From contig SVCW01000003.1 in NCBI GenBank assembly GCA_015058155.1, forward strand, positions 1-64,000: a stretch of 64,000 nt of DNA, in the 5' to 3' direction. Source of the stretch: Clostridiales bacterium. GTDB lineage: Bacteria; Bacillota; Clostridia; Peptostreptococcales; Anaerovoracaceae. Shown piece after piece: positions 44,539 through 62,350 of this stretch (position 1 is its first letter; every line of letters starts with the position of its first letter). The notes under the pieces are model-generated. The model made no database searches. It was not told the DNA's origin and worked only from the letters and a program-made list of their open reading frames with translations. Position numbers and translations under genes: made by a program.

Positions 44539-45543
44539 CTAGTAGAAATATTTTGATGTATAATTTGTGCCGTCTCCTATGTATTTCATGATTTCAGCAC
44601 TTTCCTTCGCACTTGATGCAAATGTCGGATCCATTCTCTGCCATGCAGAACCATTGAAGTAAATCACGCCGTCAACCCAGCCTGTCTCTTCTGAATATAC
44701 GCTTATCCATGCGTGATAAGCCGATCCTGCATAACCTACTACAAGTTTACAAGGCACACCCTGGCTTCTCAACATTCCTGTCATGAGAGCTGCATAGTCA
44801 AAACAGATTCCGCTCTTCTTTTCAAGAACGCTGTCGAGCACAGGAAGGTATCCGCTCTTTACAGTAGCTGCAAGCTGCTTATCGTATGTTGTATTTCTTA
44901 CAACATAATTATATACAGCCTCTACCTTCTTCAGATTATCATCGAGTCCGTAAGTAAGTTCTGCCGCTTTCTTCACTGTATTCGGTGCTGCATCATAATC
45001 AACATACTGATTTGAGTGAAGGAATGGTGCAAATTCATCAGTGAGTGTAACGTTTGCAGTTACTGAAAGGACTGAAGAATACTTTGTTCCTGAAACATTT
45101 TCATATACTACAACCTGATAGCTGCCGTTACCGTCAGAAAGAGGAAAAGCATCCCATTCGCCGGCTGTAAGGTTATATGTATATGTTGTCACAGGACCCT
45201 TTACCTGAGCCTTGAGTCTCTTGCTTGTTTCCTGCGTATACTTGATCATGATGTATCCGTCAGCTGTATTTGAATAGTCAATACGTGCTTTTGAATTCTC
45301 TTTCACAAGGATTCCCGGTGCAGTTACTGAAAGTACGCTTGGTAAAGCTGCCGGAGCTTCCGAAAGTGCCACAGCCTCTTCTTCAATATTCACTTCTGCA
45401 ATTTCAACCGTATCCGCTACAAGATACTCAGGCCCCTGCTGCTCTCCGCCGATGTCACCGCCGCCTCCGCAACCTGTTGTAATGCCCGAAAGCATCATGC
45501 AAACAAGTATCCATGCACAGATTTTTCTTTTGTTTTTCTGCAT
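44539..45543 (-). CDS. Transglutaminase-like domain lipoprotein
   Basis: 334 residues with a lipoprotein signal peptide (Lys/Arg start, hydrophobic core, lipobox ITTGC with C25), an Ig-like middle region and a C-terminal transglutaminase-like domain. The probable Cys-His-Asp triad is C247 (GICFDYA), H277 (YHAWISVY) and D305 (RMDPTF). It could act as a protease or crosslinking enzyme at the cell surface. Divergent from the SARP gene and next to the sortase/adhesin module, but it has no TGTRACC box. Confidence 0.88.
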   Translation of the reverse strand: MQKNKRKICAWILVCMMLSGITTGCGGGGDIGGEQQGPEYLVADTVEIAEVNIEEEAVALSEAPAALPSVLSVTAPGILVKENSKARIDYSNTADGYIMIKYTQETSKRLKAQVKGPVTTYTYNLTAGEWDAFPLSDGNGSYQVVVYENVSGTKYSSVLSVTANVTLTDEFAPFLHSNQYVDYDAAPNTVKKAAELTYGLDDNLKKVEAVYNYVVRNTTYDKQLAATVKSGYLPVLDSVLEKKSGICFDYAALMTGMLRSQGVPCKLVVGYAGSAYHAWISVYSEETGWVDGVIYFNGSAWQRMDPTFASSAKESAEIMKYIGDGTNYTSKYFY

Positions 45544-45667: not shown

Positions 45668-46879
45668 ATGAACAAAACCGATGAAATCATAGTAAATATG
45701 CTCGGCGATTTTTCAATCAGCTGGCACGGAAACACTATATACGACACTGACAACCGTATGCGTAAGATATGGCTTCTTACTGCGTATTTTATTTATAGAA
45801 GAAATAACCGCATCACGCAGAACGCTCTTCTCGATCTTCTCTGGGACGGAGATGATGACCGTGCAAACCCTCAGGGAGCACTCAAAACCATGCTATACCG
45901 CACAAGAAATATGCTCGGTAAACTTGAGGATAATGCAGGCTATGAGCTCATTCTCAGCAAAGACGGGAACTACTCATGGAACACTTCGCTTCCTCTCGTT
46001 CTTGATGTTGAGGAATTCGAAAAAGCATATCAGAAGGGACTTTCCGCACAGAATCAGGATGAAAAGCTCGCATACTTATCAGAGGCCCTCGACCTCTACA
46101 ATGGAGATTTTCTTCCGAGACTCTCTATGGAATCATGGGTTGTTCCGATTTCAGCACACTACCACAAGGTATTTCTTGAAATCACTGACATGGTTCTCGA
46201 TATTCTTCTCAAAAATGAAGAATGGGAAAAAGCTTCCGAAATCTGTAATCGCTCACTTAAAATCGAACCTTATTCCGAAAACCTCTATGCTGCACTTATG
46301 AAGTGCCAGATTTCGCTCGACAACAAGGAAGCCGCTATCTCGACTTATGAAACACTCAGCGAAATGCTTTATTCAAATTTCGGAGTACTTCCTTCTGACG
46401 AGACACGTGCGCTCTACAGAGAAGCCAGCAAATCAGGTAATAAGCAGGCTGTAAGCCTTGACACCATAAGAGACCAGCTTCGCGAAGACAATATAGCTTC
46501 GGGTGCTCTTTTCTGCGATTATGACTTTTTCAAGGTTCTTTACCGCTCTCAGGCGAGAACTATCGCAAGAAGCGGAGATACTATACATATCGCTCTTATT
46601 TCAGTCAATCATCCCGGAAACAAAGAACTTTCCAAAAAGAGCTTTGACAAGGCCGTTGACAATCTTAAAGAGCAGATTGTTTCAAATCTTCGTCAGGGAG
46701 ATATTGTTTCACAGTGCAGCGGATCACAATTCATCATCATGCTCCCTCATGCCAACTATGAAAACAGTTGCATGGTCTGCGGACGAATCCTGCGTGCTTT
46801 CTTCAGGAAGTATCCTCATTCACCGGCTGATATCCGTTTCAATGTGCTTCCTCTTGAGCCACGCGACATCTCATTCTGA
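45668..46879 (+). CDS. SARP/BTAD transcriptional activator with degenerate GGDEF C-terminus
   Basis: 403 residues. An OmpR-like winged helix (about 7-105) is followed by a bacterial transcriptional activator domain (about 112-253, TPR-like), together the SARP layout. The C-terminal ~120 residues look like a degenerate GGDEF domain: RQGDIVSQCSGSQF (342-355) lines up with RAKDIVSRVGGDEF of the diguanylate cyclase at 56439. The catalytic GGDEF is thus SGSQF, while the inhibitory-site RxxD (R342, D345) keeps its exact spacing. I infer a c-di-GMP-binding activator without cyclase activity. The ATG has AAAGGAG upstream. Its stop directly abuts the stop of the sortase gene. It is the best candidate to bind the TGTRACC boxes. 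Confidence 0.85.
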   Translation: MNKTDEIIVNMLGDFSISWHGNTIYDTDNRMRKIWLLTAYFIYRRNNRITQNALLDLLWDGDDDRANPQGALKTMLYRTRNMLGKLEDNAGYELILSKDGNYSWNTSLPLVLDVEEFEKAYQKGLSAQNQDEKLAYLSEALDLYNGDFLPRLSMESWVVPISAHYHKVFLEITDMVLDILLKNEEWEKASEICNRSLKIEPYSENLYAALMKCQISLDNKEAAISTYETLSEMLYSNFGVLPSDETRALYREASKSGNKQAVSLDTIRDQLREDNIASGALFCDYDFFKVLYRSQARTIARSGDTIHIALISVNHPGNKELSKKSFDKAVDNLKEQIVSNLRQGDIVSQCSGSQFIIMLPHANYENSCMVCGRILRAFFRKYPHSPADIRFNVLPLEPRDISF

Positions 46880-47683
46880 CTATAAATCAACACGTACTGC
46901 CTGAACTACCCATCTTGTGTCGGATTTCACACTTGCTCCTATACAAGTTGATAAAGTAAGGATTTTACTTCCTTCACCAGGCACGATACCTGTATCAATT
47001 ACTGAACTGTTAACAGCATGATCTATAAGGTCCTGCTGTTCTTTTTTGTTTTCAAATTTAATTCTGAATGTATCCGAAGTCACATCTGTTTCATAAGCCG
47101 CAAATATCAGATATGAGTAACTACCCTCTTCATTTGATACATTTACAATCGGATTAGCTTCCCAGTAACTGATATCCTTATATTTCGCAAGGCTTCCGAA
47201 CATAGTGTTGTTGCCCATTCTGTGACCGTAGATTATCGTATTGATATCATTAAGTGTAAAACTGTTTCTGCACTCCATAAAAATTGATCCGGATGCATTT
47301 TTTGTGCCATTCCATGCTCTGTCGAGATAATAATCATTATCCGGTGACTGGAGGAGCGGGTATGACAGTTTCGTTCCCGGAATGTTTATCCAGCCGATTA
47401 CTTCGTCGTTCACTTCTCTTAATGCTTCGAAATCCATACTCGCGAATTCATCCGCATAAGGATTCACATATACTGCAGCTTCGCTTACAGCGCTGCCTGT
47501 TACTGCTGCTTCCTCAGCCTCTTCAGGAACGATTACCTCAGGCGTCATAGCAAGAGCTACTGCTTCGTCATAGATTTCTGTGGCTTCATTATATTCTGAC
47601 ACTCTATGCCATAAAACTGCTGCACTGAAGACAAAAGTCATGCAGACAAACATCAATACTGTCTTTCTGATTTTCTTTTTCAT
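46880..47683 (-). CDS. srtB: Class B sortase
   Basis: 267 residues with an N-terminal membrane anchor (about 8-27) and a sortase B domain: GWINIPGTKLSYPLLQ, H154 in IYGHRMG, catalytic C247 in LSTCIG and R257 in DTRWVVQ. It should cleave an LPXTG-like signal and attach the protein to peptidoglycan. The obvious substrate is the adjacent VPATG surface protein. AAAGGAGG precedes the ATG, and a TGTRACC-box promoter lies 25-60 nt upstream. Confidence 0.93.
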   Translation of the reverse strand: MKKKIRKTVLMFVCMTFVFSAAVLWHRVSEYNEATEIYDEAVALAMTPEVIVPEEAEEAAVTGSAVSEAAVYVNPYADEFASMDFEALREVNDEVIGWINIPGTKLSYPLLQSPDNDYYLDRAWNGTKNASGSIFMECRNSFTLNDINTIIYGHRMGNNTMFGSLAKYKDISYWEANPIVNVSNEEGSYSYLIFAAYETDVTSDTFRIKFENKKEQQDLIDHAVNSSVIDTGIVPGEGSKILTLSTCIGASVKSDTRWVVQAVRVDL

Positions 47684-47707: not shown

Positions 47708-47751
47708 AAAATATCAGAAAGAGGTTACAAAACAGGTCACATTTTGAAAAA
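47708..47751 (-). promoter_or_regulatory. TGTRACC direct-repeat promoter, sortase gene (site B)
   Basis: Minus strand: TGTGACC (47735-47741), 5 nt, TGTAACC (47723-47729), 9 nt, TATTTT (47708-47713). It is preceded by TTTTTCAAAA. No -35 hexamer at the usual distance. Same layout as sites A (51931) and C (56292). Confidence 0.75.
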
Positions 47752-47778
47752 GTAGAGACAAAATTTTAACCATTAAAC

Positions 47779-47813
47779 GAGAATTCCCCCGGCAGTTTCC
47801 CGCCGGGGATCTC
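47779..47813 (-). terminator. Terminator of the surface protein gene
   Basis: CCCCGGC (47787-47793) pairs with GCCGGGG (47802-47808), extended by GAGA/TCTC-type pairs. The T-run is poor, so termination may be partial, leaving some read-through into the sortase gene. Confidence 0.6.
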
Positions 47814-47858
47814 TTACTTGCTATTTGTGTTTAGTAATATGTTTCAAGGTTTATCTTA

Positions 47859-50800
47859 CTACTGCTCATTTTCATTTTTGCGGCCTGTGAGATTGAGCCA
47901 GAGTAATGATACGCCTGATACTAACGCTACAAGTGCATAGTATGTTGTATTGTCACCTGTTGCAGGTACGTCTGCGAGAGGTACATCTTCATCGAAGAGG
48001 TCGATATCTCCGCCTCCGTCACCACCCGGAGGTGTGATTCCAGGAGTTGTTGTGATTCCAGGAGGAGTTGTTTCTTCGATTACTTCTTCGTAAGTATTAG
48101 TTACTACGATTGTTGTTCCTGAATTTCTTATGCTTGATTCATATCCGTCTGGTACGTCAACTTCCTTTACGCTCCAGTTACCGCTTCTTGAAAGCTGTGT
48201 CCAAGTGTATGTCCAGCCTTTTTCATCGCTTAATTCAACTTCCTGTCCGTACGGTCTGTTTCCGTCGTAAAGCTGAACTTCGATGCTTTCAGGTCTTACG
48301 TCAAGGCCTTCATCGCCCTGCCATACCTTTTCAACTGTTCTTGAAGTGTATCTTGGTGCTCCAGGAGGATTGTAAGTATTAACTACTACCCAGCTGTTTT
48401 CCCAGTCAAAGTTCATATTTGAATCTCTGCCATCTGCCCACTCGTTGTCATATGATACTGACCATCTTGATCCGAGTGAAAGTTCTACTACTTCGTACTT
48501 GATTGCTTCTCCAACTCCGCCTTCTCTGTTCTTGAAGAGTTCGTTGTTTTCTGCGTCAGTTGTGAATACAAACTTCCAAGGATTTTCAAGGAGTACTGAT
48601 GATCCTGTGATTCCAGGAACTGATACGTATACTGCATTTGCTTCTGCCTCTTCCTTTGTGAGGACGTATCTGTTGATTTCCTTACCATCAGCCTTGAGGA
48701 TAAATGTTACGTCTGTTTCCTTACCTTCAGTATCTGCACCCCAGATTTTTTCTACAGGGATTACTACTGTTTCAGCAAAGTGAACATTTTCAAGTCCAAG
48801 GAGTGCTCCTGTTGAAGTATCTGTTACTTCTCCTGCCTCATTGTATCCAGGTACTGCGTATTCATTTCTTCCGAACATATTGATACCGGAAGCATCTCTG
48901 TATCCGAGTTCCTTAACGTATACTCCGCCAGGGTACTTATTTGAGTCGTATGTGAATGTAGCTGTGTAGATGTCGCCTGTTTCGTCAACTGTTACGTCGA
49001 GCTTGTCAGGACCTACTTCCATTTCCTTTATGTACTTATTGCTGCCTTCTTCATAGAGTCCGAAGATTACGCTATCAGGACGAACACCATCTCTGTTGCT
49101 TTCATCTACCCAGAACTTGCTGAATGTTACAGGGATAATGCTTGGTGAATAGTTGTAGTGGTTAGTAACCATTGCCCATTCTTCTGAACCGCCACCTACT
49201 GTTACTGCTGCACCTGTAGGCTGATCAGTAGTTGAGTAGCTTGTGATTCTTTCATATCCGAGTCCGTGACCAGGAAGTTCAGCATAGATTTCTTCGATTG
49301 TGTATGTTCCAGGCTGGAGATTTTCTACAGTGTATTCGTATACGAGTTCACCGTTAACTCTCTGAGGGAGATCGATAGTTTCAACTTCTTCTCCTGCAGC
49401 ATCTCTTAATACGATTCTGAAAGCACCACGCTCAAATTCTTCTTCTGAAGCTGCGCCTGTTACGTCCTTCTTAACTGTAATCTTGTTTAATGGTGTGTTT
49501 TCTACCTTTGAGAATGATCCTTCAGGGATTTCAGGATATACATCAATTACCTGATATTCATAAAGTCCAGGAGGTAACTGAGGAGGATTTTCACCCTGTG
49601 GTACATTCATTACGATTGCTGAGTCTGTCGGTACTGTTTCGCCAGGACCAGGTTCGATTGCAACGATTGTTGTAGTTGCTACCGGTACGAAATCATCAGC
49701 TGTTAATGCTGCTTTGCCTTCTACTGTTGTCACATCGTAAGCTACCTTAACCTTGTATGTGTCGCTGTTATCTTCGTATCCGAATGCAGGTGCTTCTTCA
49801 CTTAAGATGAAGTCATGGCCTGAAGGGATGTCTGTAAATTCTACGATACCTTCTTCGTCTGAAATACTAGTCTGGCTCCATGATACTGTAGCCTTTACGT
49901 CCTTGTGGCTGCATACGCTGCATCTGTCACTGTGTTCGAGTACGAACTTTGCTCCGCAGATTGGTTCACCAGTCTTTGATGAAACTTTCTGGAATGCGAA
50001 TTCTCCGAGGAAACCGTGAACTGCAGGTACTTCAAATTCGAGTTCCTTGATATCTGAAAGCTTACCGTCAACGTTTTCCTTATAAGCGAAAGTAGTCTTG
50101 CCGTTTGTTTCGTAAACACCAGTGCTGTTTACGCCTGGTTCATCTACTGTTACTTCTTTGAAGTTGTCGATTTCATTTGCGAGTCTTACTCTGTACTTAA
50201 GTGTGTATGTATATGTTCCGCTGTTGGCATTGCCTTCGAGGACATATCCTGAATCCTTAAGATCCCAGCTGATTGATTCAACGCCATTGTTTGCTGTTGT
50301 AACTAAAGCTGTGTTTTCTTCACCGTCTGCGTACTTACCGTTTAATGAAGTCTTTCCAACCTTGAGGTTGCCATCCTTGTCATAGAAACCGAGGAAGTCT
50401 ACAGTAGCCGGTGACTTAACGCTCATAGGGTCAGTTACTACCCATGAACTTTCGATTGACTGCTGGTTGATTACTTCAATCTGAGTCTTGATTGCCTTGA
50501 ATGCATCTGTAAGATTCTGAGGGTTGTCGCCATCCCAGTAGTAATTTGATGCGATTCCGAATGCGAGCCACTTCTTGAAGTTTGTGTCAGGGTTAGTTCC
50601 CTTTACAAGAGCGCCGTTTTTGATTGAATCGATCTCATACTTTTCAGTGTTTGTATCAACTACACTGAATCCAGGGTTTGTGTTGCCGTTTCTCTGAAGC
50701 TTGCTGATGTCACCTACTTCACCTACATTGATACCGATTGAGAAGATACTGATGTCTCCGCTCTTATCGCCAGCCTTGAGTGAAAGTGCGATATCTCTTG

Positions 50801-51779
50801 CTTTCTGTGCACCCTTATCACTGTAAGTTGTGCCGTACCAGCATGCATTTCCAGTCTTGCTGTCGTAGAAATATCCGTCGATAGCGCTGTTTGAAGCGAT
50901 GATTTCTACGTTACCGCTTGTCTGTGACATTCTTGAATCCATTCTTGGGTTCCAGCCTGCAACCTTGCTTGTATTGCCATCGCCGTTTGCGTATGTTGTT
51001 GGAAGACCGTCACTGATGAAGATTACATACTGGCTCATTCCGTTTACTGTGCTCTGAGCAAGAAGGTTCTGAGCGAGCTTGAGTCCGCCTTCAATGTTTG
51101 TAAAGATCTGGCTCTGTCTCTTCTGATAATATTCACCTGCTTCAGTGTAAGTTCCTGTTCTAGGATTTACAATTCCGTCGTTTGCCTTACCGAAAACATC
51201 ATTTGCTTCCTTAGCAAGAGCATCCTTTAAACTCTTTGCACTATTTGCATCTGCTGCGTCTGTCCAGCCACTGATTCTTTCAGCATCTGTGTTGAAACGA
51301 ACAATTGAGAGCATTCTCTTTGCCTGAGGATTTGCTGCTGCATCTGCGCAGAACTGATCAATAAATGCGTTTGCTGCATCTTCAGCCATCTTGTACTGTG
51401 TTCCGCCGTTGATGTTGTTATCTGAGTCAACCATTGAGTATGACATATCCATTACGATAACAACTGCTGCCGGAAGAGCCTTGTAAAGTTCTTCGATGCT
51501 GTAAGGTGCTGTTGCTGTGAGTGTGATATCGAATACATTTTCGTGGTCAGTTCCTTCGATTGTCTTACTGATTTCGACACCACCCTTTGATGTTACCCCG
51601 CCCTGATATACTATCTGGTGCTGATTAAGGGGCACTGCCGGAGCCTGAGGTTCCGGATTTGCCGGAGCTACTTCACCTGTCGCAAATACACTCATGCCTG
51701 AGAGGCTGAATAAGAGTGTAAGCGTAAGGATGAATGATAATACTTTTCTTGCTCCTTCCTTTCTTTTTTTGTTACCCAT
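47859..51779 (-). CDS. Large vWA / Cna-B sortase-anchored surface protein
   Basis: 1306 residues. A signal peptide (about 1-35) precedes a von Willebrand A domain (about 104-460) with an intact MIDAS motif (D111-x-S113-x-S115). Several Cna-B/SpaA-like beta-sandwich repeats follow (around KVSSKTGEP, ITVKKDVTG, VTFSKFWVD, IPVEKIWG, RTVEKVWQG), then a short Pro/Gly/Thr-rich stretch. The C-terminus has sorting signal VPATG (1271-1275), a hydrophobic helix and charged tail GRKNENEQ. It resembles pilus-tip or MSCRAMM-type adhesins. The ATG at 51779 has AAAGGAG 8 nt upstream. Upstream are a c-di-GMP-I riboswitch and a TGTRACC-box promoter. Confidence 0.92.
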   Translation of the reverse strand: MGNKKRKEGARKVLSFILTLTLLFSLSGMSVFATGEVAPANPEPQAPAVPLNQHQIVYQGGVTSKGGVEISKTIEGTDHENVFDITLTATAPYSIEELYKALPAAVVIVMDMSYSMVDSDNNINGGTQYKMAEDAANAFIDQFCADAAANPQAKRMLSIVRFNTDAERISGWTDAADANSAKSLKDALAKEANDVFGKANDGIVNPRTGTYTEAGEYYQKRQSQIFTNIEGGLKLAQNLLAQSTVNGMSQYVIFISDGLPTTYANGDGNTSKVAGWNPRMDSRMSQTSGNVEIIASNSAIDGYFYDSKTGNACWYGTTYSDKGAQKARDIALSLKAGDKSGDISIFSIGINVGEVGDISKLQRNGNTNPGFSVVDTNTEKYEIDSIKNGALVKGTNPDTNFKKWLAFGIASNYYWDGDNPQNLTDAFKAIKTQIEVINQQSIESSWVVTDPMSVKSPATVDFLGFYDKDGNLKVGKTSLNGKYADGEENTALVTTANNGVESISWDLKDSGYVLEGNANSGTYTYTLKYRVRLANEIDNFKEVTVDEPGVNSTGVYETNGKTTFAYKENVDGKLSDIKELEFEVPAVHGFLGEFAFQKVSSKTGEPICGAKFVLEHSDRCSVCSHKDVKATVSWSQTSISDEEGIVEFTDIPSGHDFILSEEAPAFGYEDNSDTYKVKVAYDVTTVEGKAALTADDFVPVATTTIVAIEPGPGETVPTDSAIVMNVPQGENPPQLPPGLYEYQVIDVYPEIPEGSFSKVENTPLNKITVKKDVTGAASEEEFERGAFRIVLRDAAGEEVETIDLPQRVNGELVYEYTVENLQPGTYTIEEIYAELPGHGLGYERITSYSTTDQPTGAAVTVGGGSEEWAMVTNHYNYSPSIIPVTFSKFWVDESNRDGVRPDSVIFGLYEEGSNKYIKEMEVGPDKLDVTVDETGDIYTATFTYDSNKYPGGVYVKELGYRDASGINMFGRNEYAVPGYNEAGEVTDTSTGALLGLENVHFAETVVIPVEKIWGADTEGKETDVTFILKADGKEINRYVLTKEEAEANAVYVSVPGITGSSVLLENPWKFVFTTDAENNELFKNREGGVGEAIKYEVVELSLGSRWSVSYDNEWADGRDSNMNFDWENSWVVVNTYNPPGAPRYTSRTVEKVWQGDEGLDVRPESIEVQLYDGNRPYGQEVELSDEKGWTYTWTQLSRSGNWSVKEVDVPDGYESSIRNSGTTIVVTNTYEEVIEETTPPGITTTPGITPPGGDGGGDIDLFDEDVPLADVPATGDNTTYYALVALVSGVSLLWLNLTGRKNENEQ

Positions 51780-51820
51780 ATTTCGTTCTCCTTTCAAAAT
51801 CGAAGCGAAAACAAAATACT

Positions 51821-51896
51821 GGCAGCCGGGCTGACATGGTTTCTTCTGAAACTTTAGTCCCCTAGCTTTGCGTCCTGCCCTTTCGGACAGTTTGCC
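51821..51896 (-). ncRNA. Cyclic di-GMP-I riboswitch (GEMM-I)
   Basis: The minus strand carries the class I hallmarks in order: GGCAAAC start, a stem capped by a CGAAAG (GNRA) tetraloop, GGACGCAAAGC, a CTAAAG tetraloop receptor, then CAGCCCGGCTGCC closing P1 with GGCA/TGCC. It starts about 30 nt after the predicted transcription start and ends 41 nt before the adhesin ATG. I see no strong terminator hairpin between aptamer and gene, so ON/OFF direction and mechanism are open. Confidence 0.93.
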
Positions 51897-51930
51897 ATTT
51901 TCAGACCGCTGTTTTCTTTATCTTGGCTTT

Positions 51931-51975
51931 ATTATATTTTCATACGGTTACATTACCGGTTACAGTTTGAAAAAA
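51931..51975 (-). promoter_or_regulatory. TGTRACC direct-repeat promoter, surface protein gene (site A)
   Basis: Minus strand: TGTAACC (51958-51964), 5 nt, TGTAACC (51946-51952), 9 nt, TATAAT (51931-51936). Preceded by TTTTTTCAAAC. No -35 element 17 nt upstream of the -10. The transcript would carry the c-di-GMP riboswitch. Confidence 0.8.
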
Positions 51976-51980
51976 TTTCT

Positions 51981-52019
51981 TCAAAAAATAACAAAATGCG
52001 ATTTTTTTGAAACCGCATT
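51981..52019 (-). terminator. Terminator of the pilus-like operon
   Basis: AATGCG (51995-52000) pairs with CGCATT (52014-52019), followed by TTGTTATTTTTT on the minus strand, just after the pilT stop and just before site A. Confidence 0.75.
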
Positions 52020-52029
52020 CTGTAACTTA

Positions 52030-53085
52030 TTATAAAATTCTGTCGAGCTGCGCGGGATTGTCTGCATACTCAAGCGCAACTTCTTTTGTAATTTTGCCTT
52101 CCCTGTATAAGCCTGCGATGGACTGATCCATCGATATCATTCCTTCGGCTGCACCTGTTGAAATTGCAACGTTTATCTGGTGTCCTTTGTTATCACGAAT
52201 CATGTTCTTGATTGCACCGTTTACATGCATTATTTCAAACGCAGGCACAAGTTCCCCGTCTGTTCCAGGAAGCAACTGCTGCGATACAACAGTGCGAAGC
52301 ACTGACGCGAGCTGAACTCTTATCTGATCCTGCTGAAATGCCGGAAACTCATCGATGATTCTGTCGATTGCATTGACTGCACCTTTTGTATGAAGTGTCG
52401 CAAAAATCAGATGACCTGTCTCTGCTGCCGTCATTGCAGTTCTCGTTGTCTCAAGATCTCGCATTTCACCAAGCTGTATTACATTTGGTGCCTGGCGCAG
52501 GCATGCTCTCAAAGCCGAAAGATAATCTCCTGTGTCGAGCTCGATTTCTCTCTGACTCACGATACTTTTTTTGTTTCTATGTAAATACTCAATCGGATTT
52601 TCAAGCGTGATTATGTGAAAACTTTCGTTTTCATTAATTCTGTCCACAAGACACGCCTGTGTCGTTGACTTGCCGCTTCCTGCAGTTCCTGTAAAGAGAA
52701 CCATTCCGTGTGTGAGTTCCGATAACTTCATAACTTCTTCAGGAATCATGTATTCTCTGTAATCAGGAATATCAAAAGCCACGACTCTCACTACCGCAGC
52801 AAGAGAGCCTCTCTGCTTGTATGCATTTGCACGGAATCTGGCAAGCCCCGGAACAGAAAACGAAAAGTCATCGTCTCCGCTTTTTATGTACTCGTCCATG
52901 CTTCTTCCGGCCATACTGTACATTTCAGAAATAAGCGCTTCCGTTTCCTTCGGCATCACTTTTTCTTCCGAAAGTGCGTGTATTTCTCCGTCATATTTCG
53001 CGCTTACATTTCCACCGGCTACGATAAAAATATCCGATGCCTCAAGCGAAACTGCTTCTTTTAAAATATCTGTAAGAGCTATCAT
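52030..53085 (-). CDS. pilT: PilT-type twitching/retraction ATPase
   Basis: 351-residue secretion ATPase of the PilT branch. Walker A is GTAGSGKST (132-140), the Walker B region VIQLGEMRD, followed by TAAETGHLIFATLHT and the PilT-specific AFQQDQIRVQLAS. PilT normally powers pilus retraction. No PilB extension ATPase is in the window, so this enzyme may drive both directions or work with a distant PilB. Last gene of the operon. GGAGG lies 7 nt before the ATG. Confidence 0.93.
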   Translation of the reverse strand: MIALTDILKEAVSLEASDIFIVAGGNVSAKYDGEIHALSEEKVMPKETEALISEMYSMAGRSMDEYIKSGDDDFSFSVPGLARFRANAYKQRGSLAAVVRVVAFDIPDYREYMIPEEVMKLSELTHGMVLFTGTAGSGKSTTQACLVDRINENESFHIITLENPIEYLHRNKKSIVSQREIELDTGDYLSALRACLRQAPNVIQLGEMRDLETTRTAMTAAETGHLIFATLHTKGAVNAIDRIIDEFPAFQQDQIRVQLASVLRTVVSQQLLPGTDGELVPAFEIMHVNGAIKNMIRDNKGHQINVAISTGAAEGMISMDQSIAGLYREGKITKEVALEYADNPAQLDRIL

Positions 53086-53115
53086 CTCATGCCCTCCTTA
53101 TAACATATAAAGGGG

Positions 53116-53526
53116 TTATTCTCCTCCCCACACATTCATGCTTTCATCATTCTCCCAGCTTCCTGTATAAACAGTCTGCCAGCGTTCTATAAGATAATCG
53201 CTGCCGTTTACTGTAACTTCGACCCGGAGTTCTCTTGTGTCATTTATATGGCACACATATTTATACGTATCCCCTTCGCAGGTTACATTATCAGGGATAT
53301 TGCCGCTTCTTATTTCAGAAAGAATCTTTTCAGCCTCACTATCTGCTGCGTAATACTCTTTCACACTTACTGCAGTCTTCTCAGAAAGAGCACTATCCGC
53401 ACTCGCCGATGAAACTGACAATACTGCAAATACCGTGATACATAGTATTGCAAATATGACAAGAAGCGAACTCACACCCGTTCCCATTGCGAAAACAGAT
53501 TTTTCTTCATTTCTCTTTTTACTCAA
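53116..53526 (-). CDS. Uncharacterised pilus-operon membrane protein
   Basis: 136 residues. One membrane helix near the N-terminus (about 17-40) follows a short charged cytoplasmic stretch, then a soluble region with KEYYAADSEAEKIL after it and an acidic, Trp-containing C-terminus ending in NVWGGE. The N-terminus lacks a clear prepilin-peptidase site. The reading frame overlaps the upstream pilin-like gene by 8 nt. Probably an assembly or minor-subunit protein; no known family assigned. Confidence 0.7.
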   Translation of the reverse strand: MSKKRNEEKSVFAMGTGVSSLLVIFAILCITVFAVLSVSSASADSALSEKTAVSVKEYYAADSEAEKILSEIRSGNIPDNVTCEGDTYKYVCHINDTRELRVEVTVNGSDYLIERWQTVYTGSWENDESMNVWGGE

Positions 53527-53917
53527 AACTGCTCACCTCCTGCCAGGAAGTTTCAAGTGCGAAAACTTCTTTTTCCTGATCAAGGACAACTATTTCCGCA
53601 GTTCCGAGATACTGATCCATTTTGATTATTTCTGCCGTAATCTCAAGATTTCCGTTTTCAAGTTCTATAGTATAAGTGAGCGTGTCACCATCACTATCTC
53701 CCGAAAGCAGCCTTGCAGCTTCTTCAAAGTCTCCGGCTGTTGATTTTATAATCTGAGCAGTATTTTCTGCCGCAAGAACCGCCCTGTCCATCCGGAAATT
53801 AGCTTCCGTTTCGTTACGGCTCCATACAAAAGCCTTTACACAAAGGCCTGCTGCAAGTGCAAATACAAGCAGCATTACAAGCATTTCCATCATCACGAGA
53901 GGTGCCTTACTTCTCAT
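53519..53917 (-). CDS. Minor pilin-like protein
   Basis: 132 residues. A short basic N-terminus and a hydrophobic helix with an early Glu (PLVMMEMLVMLLVFALAAG) look like a type IV pilin leader helix, with a small globular domain after it. The start overlaps the preceding gene by 4 nt (ATGA). The operon position between other pilin-like genes supports a minor pilin role. Confidence 0.7.
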   Translation of the reverse strand: MRSKAPLVMMEMLVMLLVFALAAGLCVKAFVWSRNETEANFRMDRAVLAAENTAQIIKSTAGDFEEAARLLSGDSDGDTLTYTIELENGNLEITAEIIKMDQYLGTAEIVVLDQEKEVFALETSWQEVSSFE

Positions 53918-54411
53918 AAGCCGACCTCCCTTCTTCCGTAAACCGAATAGTTCACAGAAACAATATCTCCATCCGGAGTCTTTATATCAATGCTAATCAA
54001 AGCATCAGTTATCGAAGCACTCATAGACTCCGCAGGAACAAGTTTTTCTCCCGCATCAGCTTCTACCCCGCTATCGGGAATCGAAAAACACTCCATAAGC
54101 CACCCGTCATAGCAGTAAATCTTTGTAGCATATATATCGCCATCGATTTCCTCTTCAATAACGAGTGCCTGGCTTCCGTCCATTTCACCAAGATATACTC
54201 TGTCAAGATTTTCTGCCTGCTCGAGCTTTGTGAAAATATAATGCGCACACGTTCTTTCGCGATACGTTACATCGTCACGCGAAGCAATCTTCTGATATGA
54301 AGATATTCCGAGACTGAGCGTCGCTATGATACAGATTGCAAATATACCGAAAACGAGAAAAACGAACGCATCCGATATTGAGTTGTTCCTTGCGTACTCT
54401 TTTTTTCTCAT
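53914..54411 (-). CDS. Pilus-operon membrane protein (DUF4860-like)
   Basis: 165 residues with a single membrane helix (about 14-37) after RNNSISDAF, then a beta-rich soluble domain. I associate this pattern with the DUF4860 proteins of clostridial pilus clusters, but this is recall only. Its ATG directly follows the stop of the pseudopilin gene. Possibly a minor pilin. Confidence 0.65.
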   Translation of the reverse strand: MRKKEYARNNSISDAFVFLVFGIFAICIIATLSLGISSYQKIASRDDVTYRERTCAHYIFTKLEQAENLDRVYLGEMDGSQALVIEEEIDGDIYATKIYCYDGWLMECFSIPDSGVEADAGEKLVPAESMSASITDALISIDIKTPDGDIVSVNYSVYGRREVGL

Positions 54412-54726
54412 TTACTTCTCTATCACCGTAATATCGGGCATTATGTTCGAAGCAAATACATCGTAGTGAACATAAAACCTTTCTTCATCAATTCTCACAT
54501 TGTATTTTTCTACGAGATAATCAAGCGTAGGTGGATAAATTCCTTCGTTTGCATAACAAGTAACCGCTCCTTTTACAAGCGCTTCTTCAAGTCTTACGGC
54601 TGCCTGTTCTTCACCGGCACTTCCGAGACTTCCGAAAGCAGTCGTAAAAATAGCGACTACTACAATAATTACTATGACAGCAGGAACGAGTGCTGCAATT
54701 TTTCCCTTGTTTCTCGCCCTTACCAT
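54412..54726 (-). CDS. Type IV pseudopilin-like protein
   Basis: 104 residues. A basic leader precedes a hydrophobic helix (about 10-30), then an amphipathic helix with EEQAAVRLEEALVKG and CYANEGIYPPTLDYL. The latter resembles the YP(P/S)-L motif of GspG/PilE-type pilins. The canonical GFTLIE processing site is not present. Small size suggests a minor or simplified major pilin. Confidence 0.72.
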   Translation of the reverse strand: MVRARNKGKIAALVPAVIVIIVVVAIFTTAFGSLGSAGEEQAAVRLEEALVKGAVTCYANEGIYPPTLDYLVEKYNVRIDEERFYVHYDVFASNIMPDITVIEK

Positions 54727-54733
54727 AATACAC

Positions 54734-55777
54734 CTATCCGAGTGATGCCATAATCTGCACGAGCGGCATCATAACCGAAAGAAGTATCAGGCCTACAGCT
54801 CCGGCTGTAATAACAATAATGCAAGGTTCAATCCTGCTGATTTTTGAAGCCAGCGCATATTCGCTCTCTTCAAGCAGTCTTTCGGCGATGCTCTGCATTG
54901 CATCGTCACCAAGTCCGCCCCTCATTCCGACTTCAAGTAGTCTGCATTCTGTTTTCGGCAGGATTCTGTTTCTGGAAAGAGTATCTGAAAGAGTCTCGCC
55001 TCTTGACAGATCTTCGATACTTCCGAGGCATCTCTTCTGGAATGAAGGTATGTCTTCTGTAAGCTTCGCTGCCATTGTGAGCGCATCCTCAATAGCAAGG
55101 CCACTACTTACAGACATTGAAATAGCCTGCGCAGTTCTTGCGATATTGATCTTTTCCCAGACTCCCTTATCGCCGAAATTCTTTTTCCAGAATCCGAGGA
55201 AGCTGTTTCTGAAACTTCCTGAAAAAGAAATCATGATCATCAAAACAGCTGCTACTGCCACAAGTATACAAATAGCAGGCATGATGCTCTTTATAACTTT
55301 TCCAAGTGCAAGGAGAACTCCGGCAATGCCTGTAAGCGAACTTCCCATCTGTCCGTAAACTTTATCAAATAACGGTAAAACCTCCACCAGTAGTACTCCT
55401 ATTACGATAAACATAATAATGAGTAATAATGCCGGATAGAGTAGTGCCGTTTTTATTTGTCTTTCAAGTCTGAGACGATTGTCATAGAACTGTGCAAGTG
55501 CTGAAAGCGATTTTTCCAGTCTCCCCGTTTTTTCTCCCACTTCAATAAGGCTTGACATATAAGCGGGAAAAGCTTCACTCTTTTTAAGTGACTCCGAAAG
55601 CGAATAGCCTGAATCACAGTAGCCTGCAAGTTCTCTTAATAGTTCACTGTATCCGCCTTTTTCATCTTCAGCAAGCATGGTAAACCCGTCCGCCGGACTG
55701 ATTCCTGCGTGCATAAGCATCTCAAGGCTCTCGGAAATATGTCTCAGTTCTTCACCGGATAACTGCATTTTCTTCAT
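54734..55777 (-). CDS. GspF/PilC-type inner-membrane platform protein
   Basis: 347 residues with two copies of the T2SSF domain and three membrane helices (around residues 110-135, 160-185 and 320-345). Typical signatures are GYSLSESLKKSEAFP and GETLSDTLSRNRILP. It is the membrane platform for pilin assembly. It starts 60 nt after the 139-residue unknown protein. Confidence 0.92.
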   Translation of the reverse strand: MKKMQLSGEELRHISESLEMLMHAGISPADGFTMLAEDEKGGYSELLRELAGYCDSGYSLSESLKKSEAFPAYMSSLIEVGEKTGRLEKSLSALAQFYDNRLRLERQIKTALLYPALLLIIMFIVIGVLLVEVLPLFDKVYGQMGSSLTGIAGVLLALGKVIKSIMPAICILVAVAAVLMIMISFSGSFRNSFLGFWKKNFGDKGVWEKINIARTAQAISMSVSSGLAIEDALTMAAKLTEDIPSFQKRCLGSIEDLSRGETLSDTLSRNRILPKTECRLLEVGMRGGLGDDAMQSIAERLLEESEYALASKISRIEPCIIVITAGAVGLILLSVMMPLVQIMASLG

Positions 55778-55837
55778 AAATACTCCAGTTTGATATTTTA
55801 ATTACTTATTTTACCACATATTTGTGTATGTTTGCAA

Positions 55838-56257
55838 TTATTCCGAAGAAAGCGCACTATGCATAAGAATTATAAGTTCAAGAACACTTCTGAAGCTCTC
55901 CTCCTGTTTGCCTTCAAGCCACATTACAGATCCCTGCCAGCTTGCATTCTGTCTGAAAAGAATCCGAATGCTGAATGTCGCAAGTTCCCCTGTGTGTTTT
56001 TCCTCATCCGAAGACGGCGACAATTCTATAGTGGCAGGCGGTATGAAATGCCTCATTTCGTTGAATGATTGCGGTGTTTTCAGTTCTTCAAGGACTTTCT
56101 GCATCTTCAGAAGGAACTCTACTGCACTTTCAAACTCTTCCCGTTTTCCCGTCCCGGCATTAAAAAACGATCCCGTCATAACGCCATGGATATATGAATC
56201 TATACATACCAAGGTATTGCTATTTCCAATACTTTTTGAACTTTTATTATCTGCCAA
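55838..56257 (-). CDS. Unknown 139-residue protein, first gene of the pilus operon
   Basis: 139 residues beginning at TTG (MADNKSS), with AAGGAGG 9 nt upstream. No membrane helix or signal peptide, so it is probably cytoplasmic. Distinctive segments are CIDSYIHGVMTGSFF in the N-terminal part and LFRQNASWQGSVMWLEGK near the C-terminus. I recognise no known domain, although it looks well folded and its codon use matches its neighbours. Transcribed from site C ahead of gspF. Confidence 0.75.
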   Translation of the reverse strand: MADNKSSKSIGNSNTLVCIDSYIHGVMTGSFFNAGTGKREEFESAVEFLLKMQKVLEELKTPQSFNEMRHFIPPATIELSPSSDEEKHTGELATFSIRILFRQNASWQGSVMWLEGKQEESFRSVLELIILMHSALSSE

Positions 56258-56291
56258 TAGCCAGTACCTCCTTCTACATCTTTTCGCTGTC

Positions 56292-56336
56292 AGTATATCA
56301 GCCTGCGGTCACAGTATTGGTTACAGTTTCAAAAAA
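56292..56336 (-). promoter_or_regulatory. TGTRACC direct-repeat promoter, pilus operon (site C)
   Basis: Minus strand: TGTAACC (56319-56325), 5 nt, TGTGACC (56307-56313), 9 nt, TATACT (56292-56297). Preceded by TTTTTTGAAAC. The leader to the TTG start would be about 30 nt, without a riboswitch. Confidence 0.75.
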
Positions 56337-56438: not shown

Positions 56439-59315
56439 ATGCAGTTAAGAGATACTATCCTCGTTTTTTCTGATATCAGTACTGAACGCGCACGTTTCAG
56501 GGAAATATTCCGTGATCGCTACAATGTACTCGAAGCTCACAACAGAAAACAGCTCGCACTTCTTCTTAATCACAACGAAAAGTGCATAGCGGCCATAATA
56601 GTCAAGGCACCGCCTCCTGAAAACAAAAGTGAGTCGGTTATTACCATGCTGAGAGAAGCCGATCTTGTCGGTACTATTCCAGTTATACTCATACTTCCTA
56701 AAAAAAGTAAGCGTGCCGAACTTCTGGCATATGAAGACGGAGCTACTGACGTTATAACTGAACCTTGTGATGACAGAATTATCTTCAAGCGCATAGAAAA
56801 TGTTGTAAGCCTTTCAATCTACAAGAACAACCTTGAAACACTTGTGGACAAGCAGGCAAAGACTCTCAAGAATGCAAACGATAACATGGTTGACGCGCTT
56901 TCAGCGATTATCGAATACAGAAGTGCAGAATCCGGAAAACATGTCTTAAGAGTACGTCATTATGTAAAACTTCTTCTTAATGACATGGCGATTTCATTTC
57001 CGGAATACGGAATCACAGAAGACATGATTGACAAAATTTCCGGTGCATCTTCACTTCACGACATAGGTAAAGTTTCAATTCCTGACAGCATTCTTAATAA
57101 GCCGGACAAGCTTACGGAAGAAGAGTTTTCAATTATGAAACACCACACTACAAACGGTGCAAAAATGGTTGAGACTCTCGTTGGTATCGCTGATGAAGAT
57201 TATCTGAGATATGCGTATAATATCTGTCTTCATCATCATGAACGCTGGGACGGAAGAGGATATCCCGCAGGTCTTAAGGGCGATGAAATTCCGCTCTGCG
57301 CTCAGGTAACAGGAATCGCAGATGTTTACGATGTACTTACAACAGAAAGAGTATACAAAGCTCCTTATCAGCACAACGTTGCAATCAATATGATTCTCAA
57401 TGGTGAATGCGGAGCCTTCAATCCGAAAATACTCGAATCTTTCAAGAATCTCAGAAACGAGTTTATAAGTCTCGCCCGTGAGCTTTCTGATGACAGCAAT
57501 ATAAAATCTGATGAACTCCTTGAATCGCTCATGAAACCGATGCCGGCAATCACATGTGTTGGTGAAGATACAGTTCACAACGCATACCTTTCCATGCCGA
57601 AATCGGGTAAGTATCTCACTTCACAGGCACTTCAGGCAAAGTACCAGTCACTCATTCACTATACAAATGCGACGATTATCGAAGTGGATCTTGTAAATGA
57701 CTCTTACCATATAGTTTTCAATCCGTTTACAGACTTCAAGTTTCCTTCGTCAAGGTCAAGCTTCTCAGAAGCTCTTGATGAAGCTGTTGCGACTATGGTG
57801 CATCCTGAAGATCGTGGTTTTGAAAAAAATTTCTATTATGAATGTGACAAGGCATTTAATCGCGAAGGACTCAGAAGATTCGGATGGACAACAAGAATCT
57901 ACCAGCCTTCTTTCAAGCAATACTTCCCTTGGAAAACGAGCGTAATCAAGGTCGGAAACGAAAACAGCGGACAAAATGACGTACTTGTTATAATCGAACC
58001 GGTAAAAGAGCAGATTGTTCTTCACCATGACAACCAAAGTTCTCTCCAGAGAAGAGCTACAATGTATGATATTTCGGGTTCAGTAGTCTGCTATAAACAC
58101 GATGCCGAGCTCACTCTTGTTGACGGCATCAGAAATCTTTACAACCTTCTCGGCTATACCATGACTGAAGTCAAGGAGCTTTTCGATAATAAACTTATAA
58201 ATATGGTCGTTCCCGAAGACAGAGCCGAATTCACAAGAAGTGAAAAAGCACAGCTTGATCAGGGTACTATCGCCAAAATAAACCACAGAATGTTCCACAA
58301 AGACGGATCATATGTCTGGGTTCAGACAAAGGCAAAGCTCGTAGTTGAAAAGAATGGTCAGGAATATATTTATTCAACTTTAAACGATAATACCGAGGCG
58401 ATGAAGGCAATTGAAAAATTCAGAGTCGAAGCCGAAACAAACAAAATTATAATCGACCAGAGTGAAGGTATCGTTTTCGAATGGGATTCCGATACAGACT
58501 ACCTCAATTTTTCATCGAAATGGGAAAAGAGATTCGGATACATACCAATAGGTGAAAACTTCAGTACTTATCTCAAAGAATCTTCCAGATTCCACCCGGA
58601 CGATACTTCTCTTATACTCGATGCTGCAAGAGGTCTCATAGGCGGTAATCCGAAATTTGATATTGAAGTAAGAATTCTCGATTCCGAAAGCCGTTATATC
58701 TGGAATCGTGTCAGAGCTACTGCAATCCGTGACAATTCAGGAAGACTTGTCAGAATTGTAGGTATCATAACAGATATTCACAATACAAAAAGCGACGTTC
58801 AGAATCTCAAGAGGCAATCAGAAGAAGACGGACTGACAAAGCTTCTCAACAGAAATACCGCTACTTCCAGAATCAAGGTGCTTCTCGATAAGTGTACAGA
58901 AGATAGTGTCTCTGCTATGCTTCTTATTGATATTGATAACTTCAAGGCAGTAAACGACAACTTCGGCCATCTTTTCGGTGACAAACTTCTTGTAAGCGTT
59001 GCTGAAGAAATCAAAAATTGTTTCAGAGCAAAAGATATTGTCTCGAGAGTCGGCGGAGATGAATTCCTTGTTTTCATCAATAATATCAATGAAGTAAGAC
59101 GCGTTGAAAAGCGTGTGAACGAACTCCTTCTCAATCTTCGCATCCTTTTTGCAAATCAGGTTGATGATGCGGAAATTATCGGTCTTTCGGCCTCAATAGG
59201 AATCGCTCTCATACCTGAAAGCGGAACATCTTTCCTTGAACTCTACGAAAAGGCTGACAAAGCTCTATACAATGCAAAGAGAAGCGGTAAGAACCAGTAT
59301 TCCTTTGCAGAATAA
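56439..59315 (+). CDS. Pseudo-receiver / HD-GYP / PAS / GGDEF c-di-GMP enzyme 1
   Basis: 958 residues. The N-terminal receiver-like domain (about 5-125) lacks the phospho-Asp (IIVKAPPP in its place). An HD-GYP phosphodiesterase domain (about 150-345) has HD at 207-208 and HHERWDGRGYP (GYP 274-276). PAS-like regions fill about 390-785. A GGDEF domain at the C-terminus has an intact GGDEF (872-876) and I-site RAKD (863-866). Both a hydrolase and a feedback-inhibited cyclase therefore look competent. No membrane helix. Paralogue of 59391-62306. Confidence 0.93.
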   Translation: MQLRDTILVFSDISTERARFREIFRDRYNVLEAHNRKQLALLLNHNEKCIAAIIVKAPPPENKSESVITMLREADLVGTIPVILILPKKSKRAELLAYEDGATDVITEPCDDRIIFKRIENVVSLSIYKNNLETLVDKQAKTLKNANDNMVDALSAIIEYRSAESGKHVLRVRHYVKLLLNDMAISFPEYGITEDMIDKISGASSLHDIGKVSIPDSILNKPDKLTEEEFSIMKHHTTNGAKMVETLVGIADEDYLRYAYNICLHHHERWDGRGYPAGLKGDEIPLCAQVTGIADVYDVLTTERVYKAPYQHNVAINMILNGECGAFNPKILESFKNLRNEFISLARELSDDSNIKSDELLESLMKPMPAITCVGEDTVHNAYLSMPKSGKYLTSQALQAKYQSLIHYTNATIIEVDLVNDSYHIVFNPFTDFKFPSSRSSFSEALDEAVATMVHPEDRGFEKNFYYECDKAFNREGLRRFGWTTRIYQPSFKQYFPWKTSVIKVGNENSGQNDVLVIIEPVKEQIVLHHDNQSSLQRRATMYDISGSVVCYKHDAELTLVDGIRNLYNLLGYTMTEVKELFDNKLINMVVPEDRAEFTRSEKAQLDQGTIAKINHRMFHKDGSYVWVQTKAKLVVEKNGQEYIYSTLNDNTEAMKAIEKFRVEAETNKIIIDQSEGIVFEWDSDTDYLNFSSKWEKRFGYIPIGENFSTYLKESSRFHPDDTSLILDAARGLIGGNPKFDIEVRILDSESRYIWNRVRATAIRDNSGRLVRIVGIITDIHNTKSDVQNLKRQSEEDGLTKLLNRNTATSRIKVLLDKCTEDSVSAMLLIDIDNFKAVNDNFGHLFGDKLLVSVAEEIKNCFRAKDIVSRVGGDEFLVFINNINEVRRVEKRVNELLLNLRILFANQVDDAEIIGLSASIGIALIPESGTSFLELYEKADKALYNAKRSGKNQYSFAE

Positions 59316-62306: not shown

Positions 62307-62350
62307 ACTATTTCTCCTCTTTTTTCGATTATCCCACAAACAAAATGAAA

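Follow-up and report, generated by a model that had tools for sequence, protein, structure and literature searches.

Do the three promoters that share a pair of TGTRACC direct repeats in a 64,000-nucleotide (nt) stretch of a Clostridiales genome (contig SVCW01000003.1, positions 1 to 64,000; here called the window) form a regulon, and which protein would read the repeats? A sequence-only reading had described the repeats as having a 12-bp period and a fixed distance of 9 nt to the -10, and had assigned them to a Streptomyces antibiotic regulatory protein (SARP)-type regulator encoded in the same cluster. All three sites were reproduced exactly, and we conclude that the boxes are a real shared promoter element. 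The assignment is also supported in substance: the box is probably the operator of a conserved surface-adhesion regulon, with a protein that combines a BTAD domain and a GGDEF remnant as its activator, possibly gated by cyclic di-GMP (c-di-GMP). Here, binding of the box by the protein, activation, and the ligand are all inferred from sequence comparison. The three boxes and the candidate regulator are as follows.

47708 to 47741, minus strand: box 1 and -10 of the sortase promoter; TGTGACC-TGTTT-TGTAACC (47723 to 47741), 9 nt, and TATTTT (47708 to 47713)
51931 to 51964, minus strand: box 2 and -10 of the adhesin promoter; TGTAACC-GGTAA-TGTAACC (51946 to 51964), 9 nt, and TATAAT (51931 to 51936)
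56292 to 56325, minus strand: box 3 and -10 before a 139-amino-acid (aa) gene heading the pilus operon; TGTAACC-AATAC-TGTGACC (56307 to 56325), 9 nt, and TATACT (56292 to 56297)
45668 to 46879, plus strand: candidate box-binding activator; winged helix, BTAD/TPR region, and C-terminal degenerate GGDEF domain

A genome-wide search for stray matches (1,702,308 bases) returned the exact heptamer pair three times, each at one of these promoters, and the backwards pattern not at all. Allowing one mismatch in the full pattern (TGTRACC-N5-TGTRACC-N9 followed by a -10) left the count unchanged, with the same three sites only. The best match to TTGACA at a spacing of 16 to 18 bp was 2 of 6 positions in each window promoter, and over 83 boxes the TTGACA match fell below the shuffled mean (2.07 versus 2.58); we therefore regard the -35 as absent, as had been claimed. 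The A-rich stretch noted ahead of the box was found in relatives as well (80% A over the 4 nt ahead of it). An extended -10 (TGN), on which the earlier description was silent, accompanies two of the window boxes and, in the 80-locus set described below, 28 of the 34 boxes.

Conservation of the box and its association with BTAD-GGDEF proteins

Conservation was assessed in 80 loci fetched solely for encoding a relative of the window BTAD protein, from Oscillibacter, Flavonifractor, Pseudoflavonifractor, and many draft Oscillospiraceae genomes. These loci were scanned for a box at either period (11 or 12 bp) with a -10 at 9 nt, with the mirrored sequence and 10 Markov shuffles as controls. The scan found 34 boxes in 30 of the 80 loci, compared to 2 in the mirrored sequence and 0 to 1 per shuffle (mean, about 0.4). 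When the gap was varied, 34 matches were obtained at 9 nt versus 1 to 13 at gaps of 4 to 8 and 10 to 15 nt. When the period was varied from 7 to 22 bp, 12 bp stood clearest above the mirrored control; counts at 18 and 21 bp were also raised, probably reflecting repeats in coding sequence. Box period was 12 bp in the clade of the window and 11 bp elsewhere. Together, these scans indicate a constant distance of 9 nt to the -10, although the repeat period differs between clades.

The genes behind the box were similar across relatives. Adding the three window boxes gave 37, of which 35 directly precede a relative of the 139-aa protein (called small139 here; n = 22), a sortase (n = 8), or a secreted surface protein (n = 5); the remaining 2 precede unclear frames. 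The expectation that the box would be conserved ahead of orthologous genes was thus borne out. The corresponding window genes are listed here.

46880 to 47683, minus strand: class B sortase, target of box 1 (TIGR03064, 185.7 bits versus a cutoff of 153.75)
47859 to 51779, minus strand: LPXTG adhesin, target of box 2, with VWA, GBS104-like Ig, SpaA, and Cna_B domains
55838 to 56257, minus strand: small139, a conserved 139-aa protein and first gene after box 3; commonest box target among relatives

For small139, no Pfam or NCBIfam family and no significant PDB fold match was found. It has an ASWQG core, and its predicted model consists of two similar beta-beta-beta-alpha units.

Some genomes in a wider set of 149 family genomes carried many period-11 boxes (15 each in G058 and G104, 11 in G122, and 6 in G123; reversed pattern, 0 to 1). 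When genes at least 200 aa long and located behind these boxes were examined in the fetched genome stretches, 34 of 43 encoded an N-terminal hydrophobic segment, versus 25% of background frames, and the domains encoded in many-box genomes included Cna_B, LRR_5, SLH, VWA/GBS104, beta-helix, and subtilase. The box thus marks a surface-protein regulon of variable size. Enlarged regulons were seen in G104, G058, and G122, with 11 to 15 boxes ahead of secreted LRR_5, SLH, Cna_B, and subtilase proteins.

Among the 149 genomes, 37 encoded a relative of the window BTAD protein and 55 encoded any BTAD domain. The BTAD-GGDEF subfamily was present in 20 of the 31 genomes with a good box (Fisher P = 9 × 10−8). 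The association of the box with BTAD domains in general was weaker (P = 9 × 10−5), so it is the subfamily, rather than the domain, that tracks the box. A -10 was demanded in these genome counts because the box with one mismatch alone gives many genomes a single chance match, for which reason box presence alone was dropped as a genome marker. In a tree of 44 BTAD proteins, the 27 with a box period of 12 bp and the 17 with a period of 11 bp part at a single branch (98/99 support); shuffling the period labels gave a mean of 13.7 changes, and none of 500 shuffles was as low as observed. The box thus both co-occurs and covaries with the BTAD/SARP-type protein, as the sequence-only reading had anticipated. 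Two genomes of the same genus (G034 and G110) lacked the BTAD subfamily, period-12 box, small139, T2SSF, and riboswitch all together. Of 31 genomes with small139, 27 also encoded the BTAD subfamily, and small139 was fused to the BTAD protein in three genomes (G021, G076, and G131). A second BTAD-GGDEF copy in G106 (locus L054, contig C166, 6963 to 8163) is split into two frames and is probably a pseudogene.

Candidate regulator, proposed mechanism, and alternatives

The protein encoded at 45668 to 46879 combines an N-terminal winged helix of the OmpR/PhoB type with a BTAD domain behind it (Pfam PF03704; E value, 8.7 × 10−23; 81.7 bits), which is the architecture of SARPs. AfsR and EmbR were matched by profile (E value for AfsR, 5.9 × 10−16) and again by Foldseek with the predicted model, which is confident (mean pLDDT, 93). 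The claim of a SARP-type gene in the cluster therefore stands with respect to the winged helix, BTAD domain, and likeness to AfsR, but the protein is not a plain SARP, since it carries a C-terminal degenerate GGDEF domain. The fixed -10 distance and the missing -35 were likewise confirmed; the 12-bp period is confined to the clade of the window, and most relatives outside it show the SARP value of 11 bp. By definition, SARP repeats lie at 11 or 22 bp, and 8 bp separate the 3′ repeat from the -10; the gap here is 9 nt. SARPs in the strict sense are actinobacterial and act on antibiotic clusters; this protein belongs to Clostridia, and its putative targets are sortase, adhesins, and pili. We therefore class it as a SARP-like BTAD activator of Clostridia, with the box as its probable operator, and not as a strict SARP.

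Two AfsR protomers occupy the afs box next to each other from -40 to -19, where they overlap the -35 and hold sigma region 4 and polymerase (PMC10936776). The base contacts are made by R92 and T88. R92 aligns with R78 of the window protein, a residue that does not vary among 47 relatives; the counterpart of T88 is T74 (the consensus residue). If the start site lies 7 nt past the -10, the window heptamers fall at -40 to -34 and -28 to -22, which places them, to about one base, where the bases contacted by AfsR lie. We propose that two BTAD-GGDEF molecules would bind side by side on one helix face, one per TGTRACC heptamer, covering about -40 to -22 in place of the -35. Polymerase would then be recruited to the -10, which is often extended and would be too weak by itself. 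Both the missing -35 and the high share of extended -10 elements fit an activator-dependent promoter. The genes driven by the protein would be the sortase, adhesin, and small139-pilus operon in the window and small139, sortase, and secreted surface proteins in relatives.

Several known regulators resemble this arrangement. AfsR and other Streptomyces SARPs share the winged helix and BTAD domain, direct repeats spaced by roughly one helical turn across the -35 region, the fixed -10 distance, and the R92/T88 equivalents; they differ in heptamer sequence (TGTRACC here), period (12 bp in the clade of the window), the C-terminal GGDEF remnant, the host (Clostridia), and targets (surface adhesins here versus antibiotic clusters). 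HilA of Salmonella also joins an OmpR-type winged helix to a TPR-like region and activates secretion genes through direct repeats, but it recognizes another site, lacks a GGDEF domain, and occurs in other bacteria. The top fold match, EmbR of Mycobacterium tuberculosis (2fez), likewise has a winged helix and BTAD domain followed by a C-terminal signal-input domain, which is an FHA domain in EmbR and a GGDEF remnant in the window protein.

Three other explanations were weighed against this activator model. Chance repeats in AT-rich promoters could be suspected, since the heptamers are short and the three cases fall within one window, but the genome-wide uniqueness and the family-wide conservation with strong controls argue otherwise, and the 80-locus scan and the target genes contradict a chance origin, which we consider practically negligible. 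It is also quite unlikely that the BTAD-GGDEF protein represses by covering the promoter and blocking polymerase. The box does overlap the core promoter, and in the clade of the window the -10 is often of the extended type, which can work without a -35; nevertheless, the -35 is wholly absent, the layout matches the AfsR activation complex, and BTAD proteins of known function are mostly activators.

Alternatively, the box could be a true operator, but for another regulator that exists alongside the BTAD protein; this could be an unlinked factor or a response regulator of the OmpR/PhoB type. OmpR/PhoB-type proteins share the winged-helix fold and also recognize direct repeats (about 11 bp), and convincing boxes and targets were present in six genomes with no detected BTAD protein (G006, G039, G054, G055, G101, and G147). 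All of these exceptions, however, are incomplete drafts (67 to 89% complete). The BTAD protein is the sole DNA-binding protein recognized between 44 and 57 kb, the box is tracked by the BTAD-GGDEF subfamily and not by BTAD domains generally, and the box period follows the BTAD protein tree; we therefore consider another regulator unlikely.

Some observations nevertheless weigh against BTAD-GGDEF control of the box. A different regulator may act in the six box-positive drafts. The period split on the protein tree also follows species kinship and is thus supporting but not independent proof. Within the fetched DNA, a box was found in only 30 of the 80 BTAD loci, some of them on short contigs. 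Finally, no box was found ahead of the BTAD gene itself nor, in relatives, ahead of the adjoining pilus operon.

In the open-licence literature, we found no description of the box, of any BTAD-GGDEF protein, or of a regulon under BTAD control in these bacteria. If correct, the activator model would provide a defined regulator-box pair for adhesins, sortase, and pili in little-studied gut bacteria (Oscillibacter, Flavonifractor, Pseudoflavonifractor, and their kin) and would show that activation of the SARP kind is not limited to actinobacteria. With a pattern of this specificity, the regulon can be listed in any sequenced relative.

Links to c-di-GMP

The C-terminal domain of the candidate activator is a GGDEF remnant, with weak Pfam and NCBIfam matches and clear profile and fold matches. 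Its catalytic motif is lost (SGSQF in the window), with glutamine (Q354) invariant at the glutamate position in 47 sequences. The RxxD of the I-site, five residues ahead of the motif, is retained, with R342 and D345 invariant in the same number of aligned sequences. The pairing of a degenerate GGDEF motif with an intact I-site characterizes c-di-GMP receptors such as PopA and SgmT (PMC3509222), in which the GGDEF domain is carried on a response regulator or histidine kinase and not on a BTAD activator. By analogy, c-di-GMP possibly controls the predicted BTAD-GGDEF activator via the I-site. Control by c-di-GMP at the RNA level is well supported by a predicted aptamer that the earlier description had not included:

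51818 to 51906, minus strand: c-di-GMP-I riboswitch aptamer, located in the leader of the adhesin gene past box 2 and ahead of the start codon (Rfam RF01051, 84.1 bits versus a gathering threshold of 35)

Riboswitches were also found in box-driven transcripts in 17 of 23 loci scanned, 16 of them just after small139 on the same strand and 1 (L261) between the box and a surface protein gene. In whole-genome data, box and riboswitch occurred in tandem in G062, G066 (twice), and G081. In Clostridioides difficile, surface adhesins and pili are under the control of c-di-GMP and its riboswitches (PMC6200980, PMC4591827). The control described there is by riboswitch; the present system adds a promoter box and a candidate activator for reading c-di-GMP. 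c-di-GMP bound to the I-site would work in concert with the leader riboswitch of the adhesin gene. A broader proposal, plausible but tentative, is that BTAD-GGDEF proteins are a new class of c-di-GMP-dependent activator, SARP-type with a catalytically dead GGDEF domain, through which c-di-GMP would gate adhesin genes twice, at initiation via the box and in the leader via the riboswitch, in a regulon spanning Oscillospiraceae and relatives. If the remnant does bind c-di-GMP, it would define a transcription factor type that we did not find in the open-licence literature, in series with a riboswitch.

Neighboring genes

Three further features flank the candidate activator and box 3.

44539 to 45543, minus strand: transglutaminase-like lipoprotein gene, divergent from the candidate activator; no box in the intergenic region
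52030 to 55777, minus strand: pilus operon encoding T2SSF/PilC, four pilin-like or small membrane proteins, and a PilT-like ATPase
56439 to 59315, plus strand: PAS, HD-GYP, and GGDEF enzyme of c-di-GMP turnover, adjoining box 3 (Pfam; GGDEF and HD-GYP motifs readable)

In most relatives (Oscillospiraceae), the pilus gene order (transglutaminase, T2SSF, four small genes, PilT) is kept divergently beside the BTAD gene. Because the pilus operon beside BTAD in these relatives lacks a box, the conserved targets are small139, sortase, and adhesins, and control of the pilus via box 3 belongs to the arrangement in the window. Autoregulation or pilus control via a box between the BTAD and transglutaminase genes was considered and rejected: nothing in this intergenic region rose clearly above shuffles, the sole exception being a small139 box in L259 that was already counted. 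The pilus operon is compact and type IV-pilus-like, with a PilT-like ATPase and no PilB-like gene within the operon. A large frame at 59391 to 62339 (minus strand) lies end to end with the c-di-GMP turnover gene at 56439 to 59315, is paralogue-like, and is matched by the same profile.

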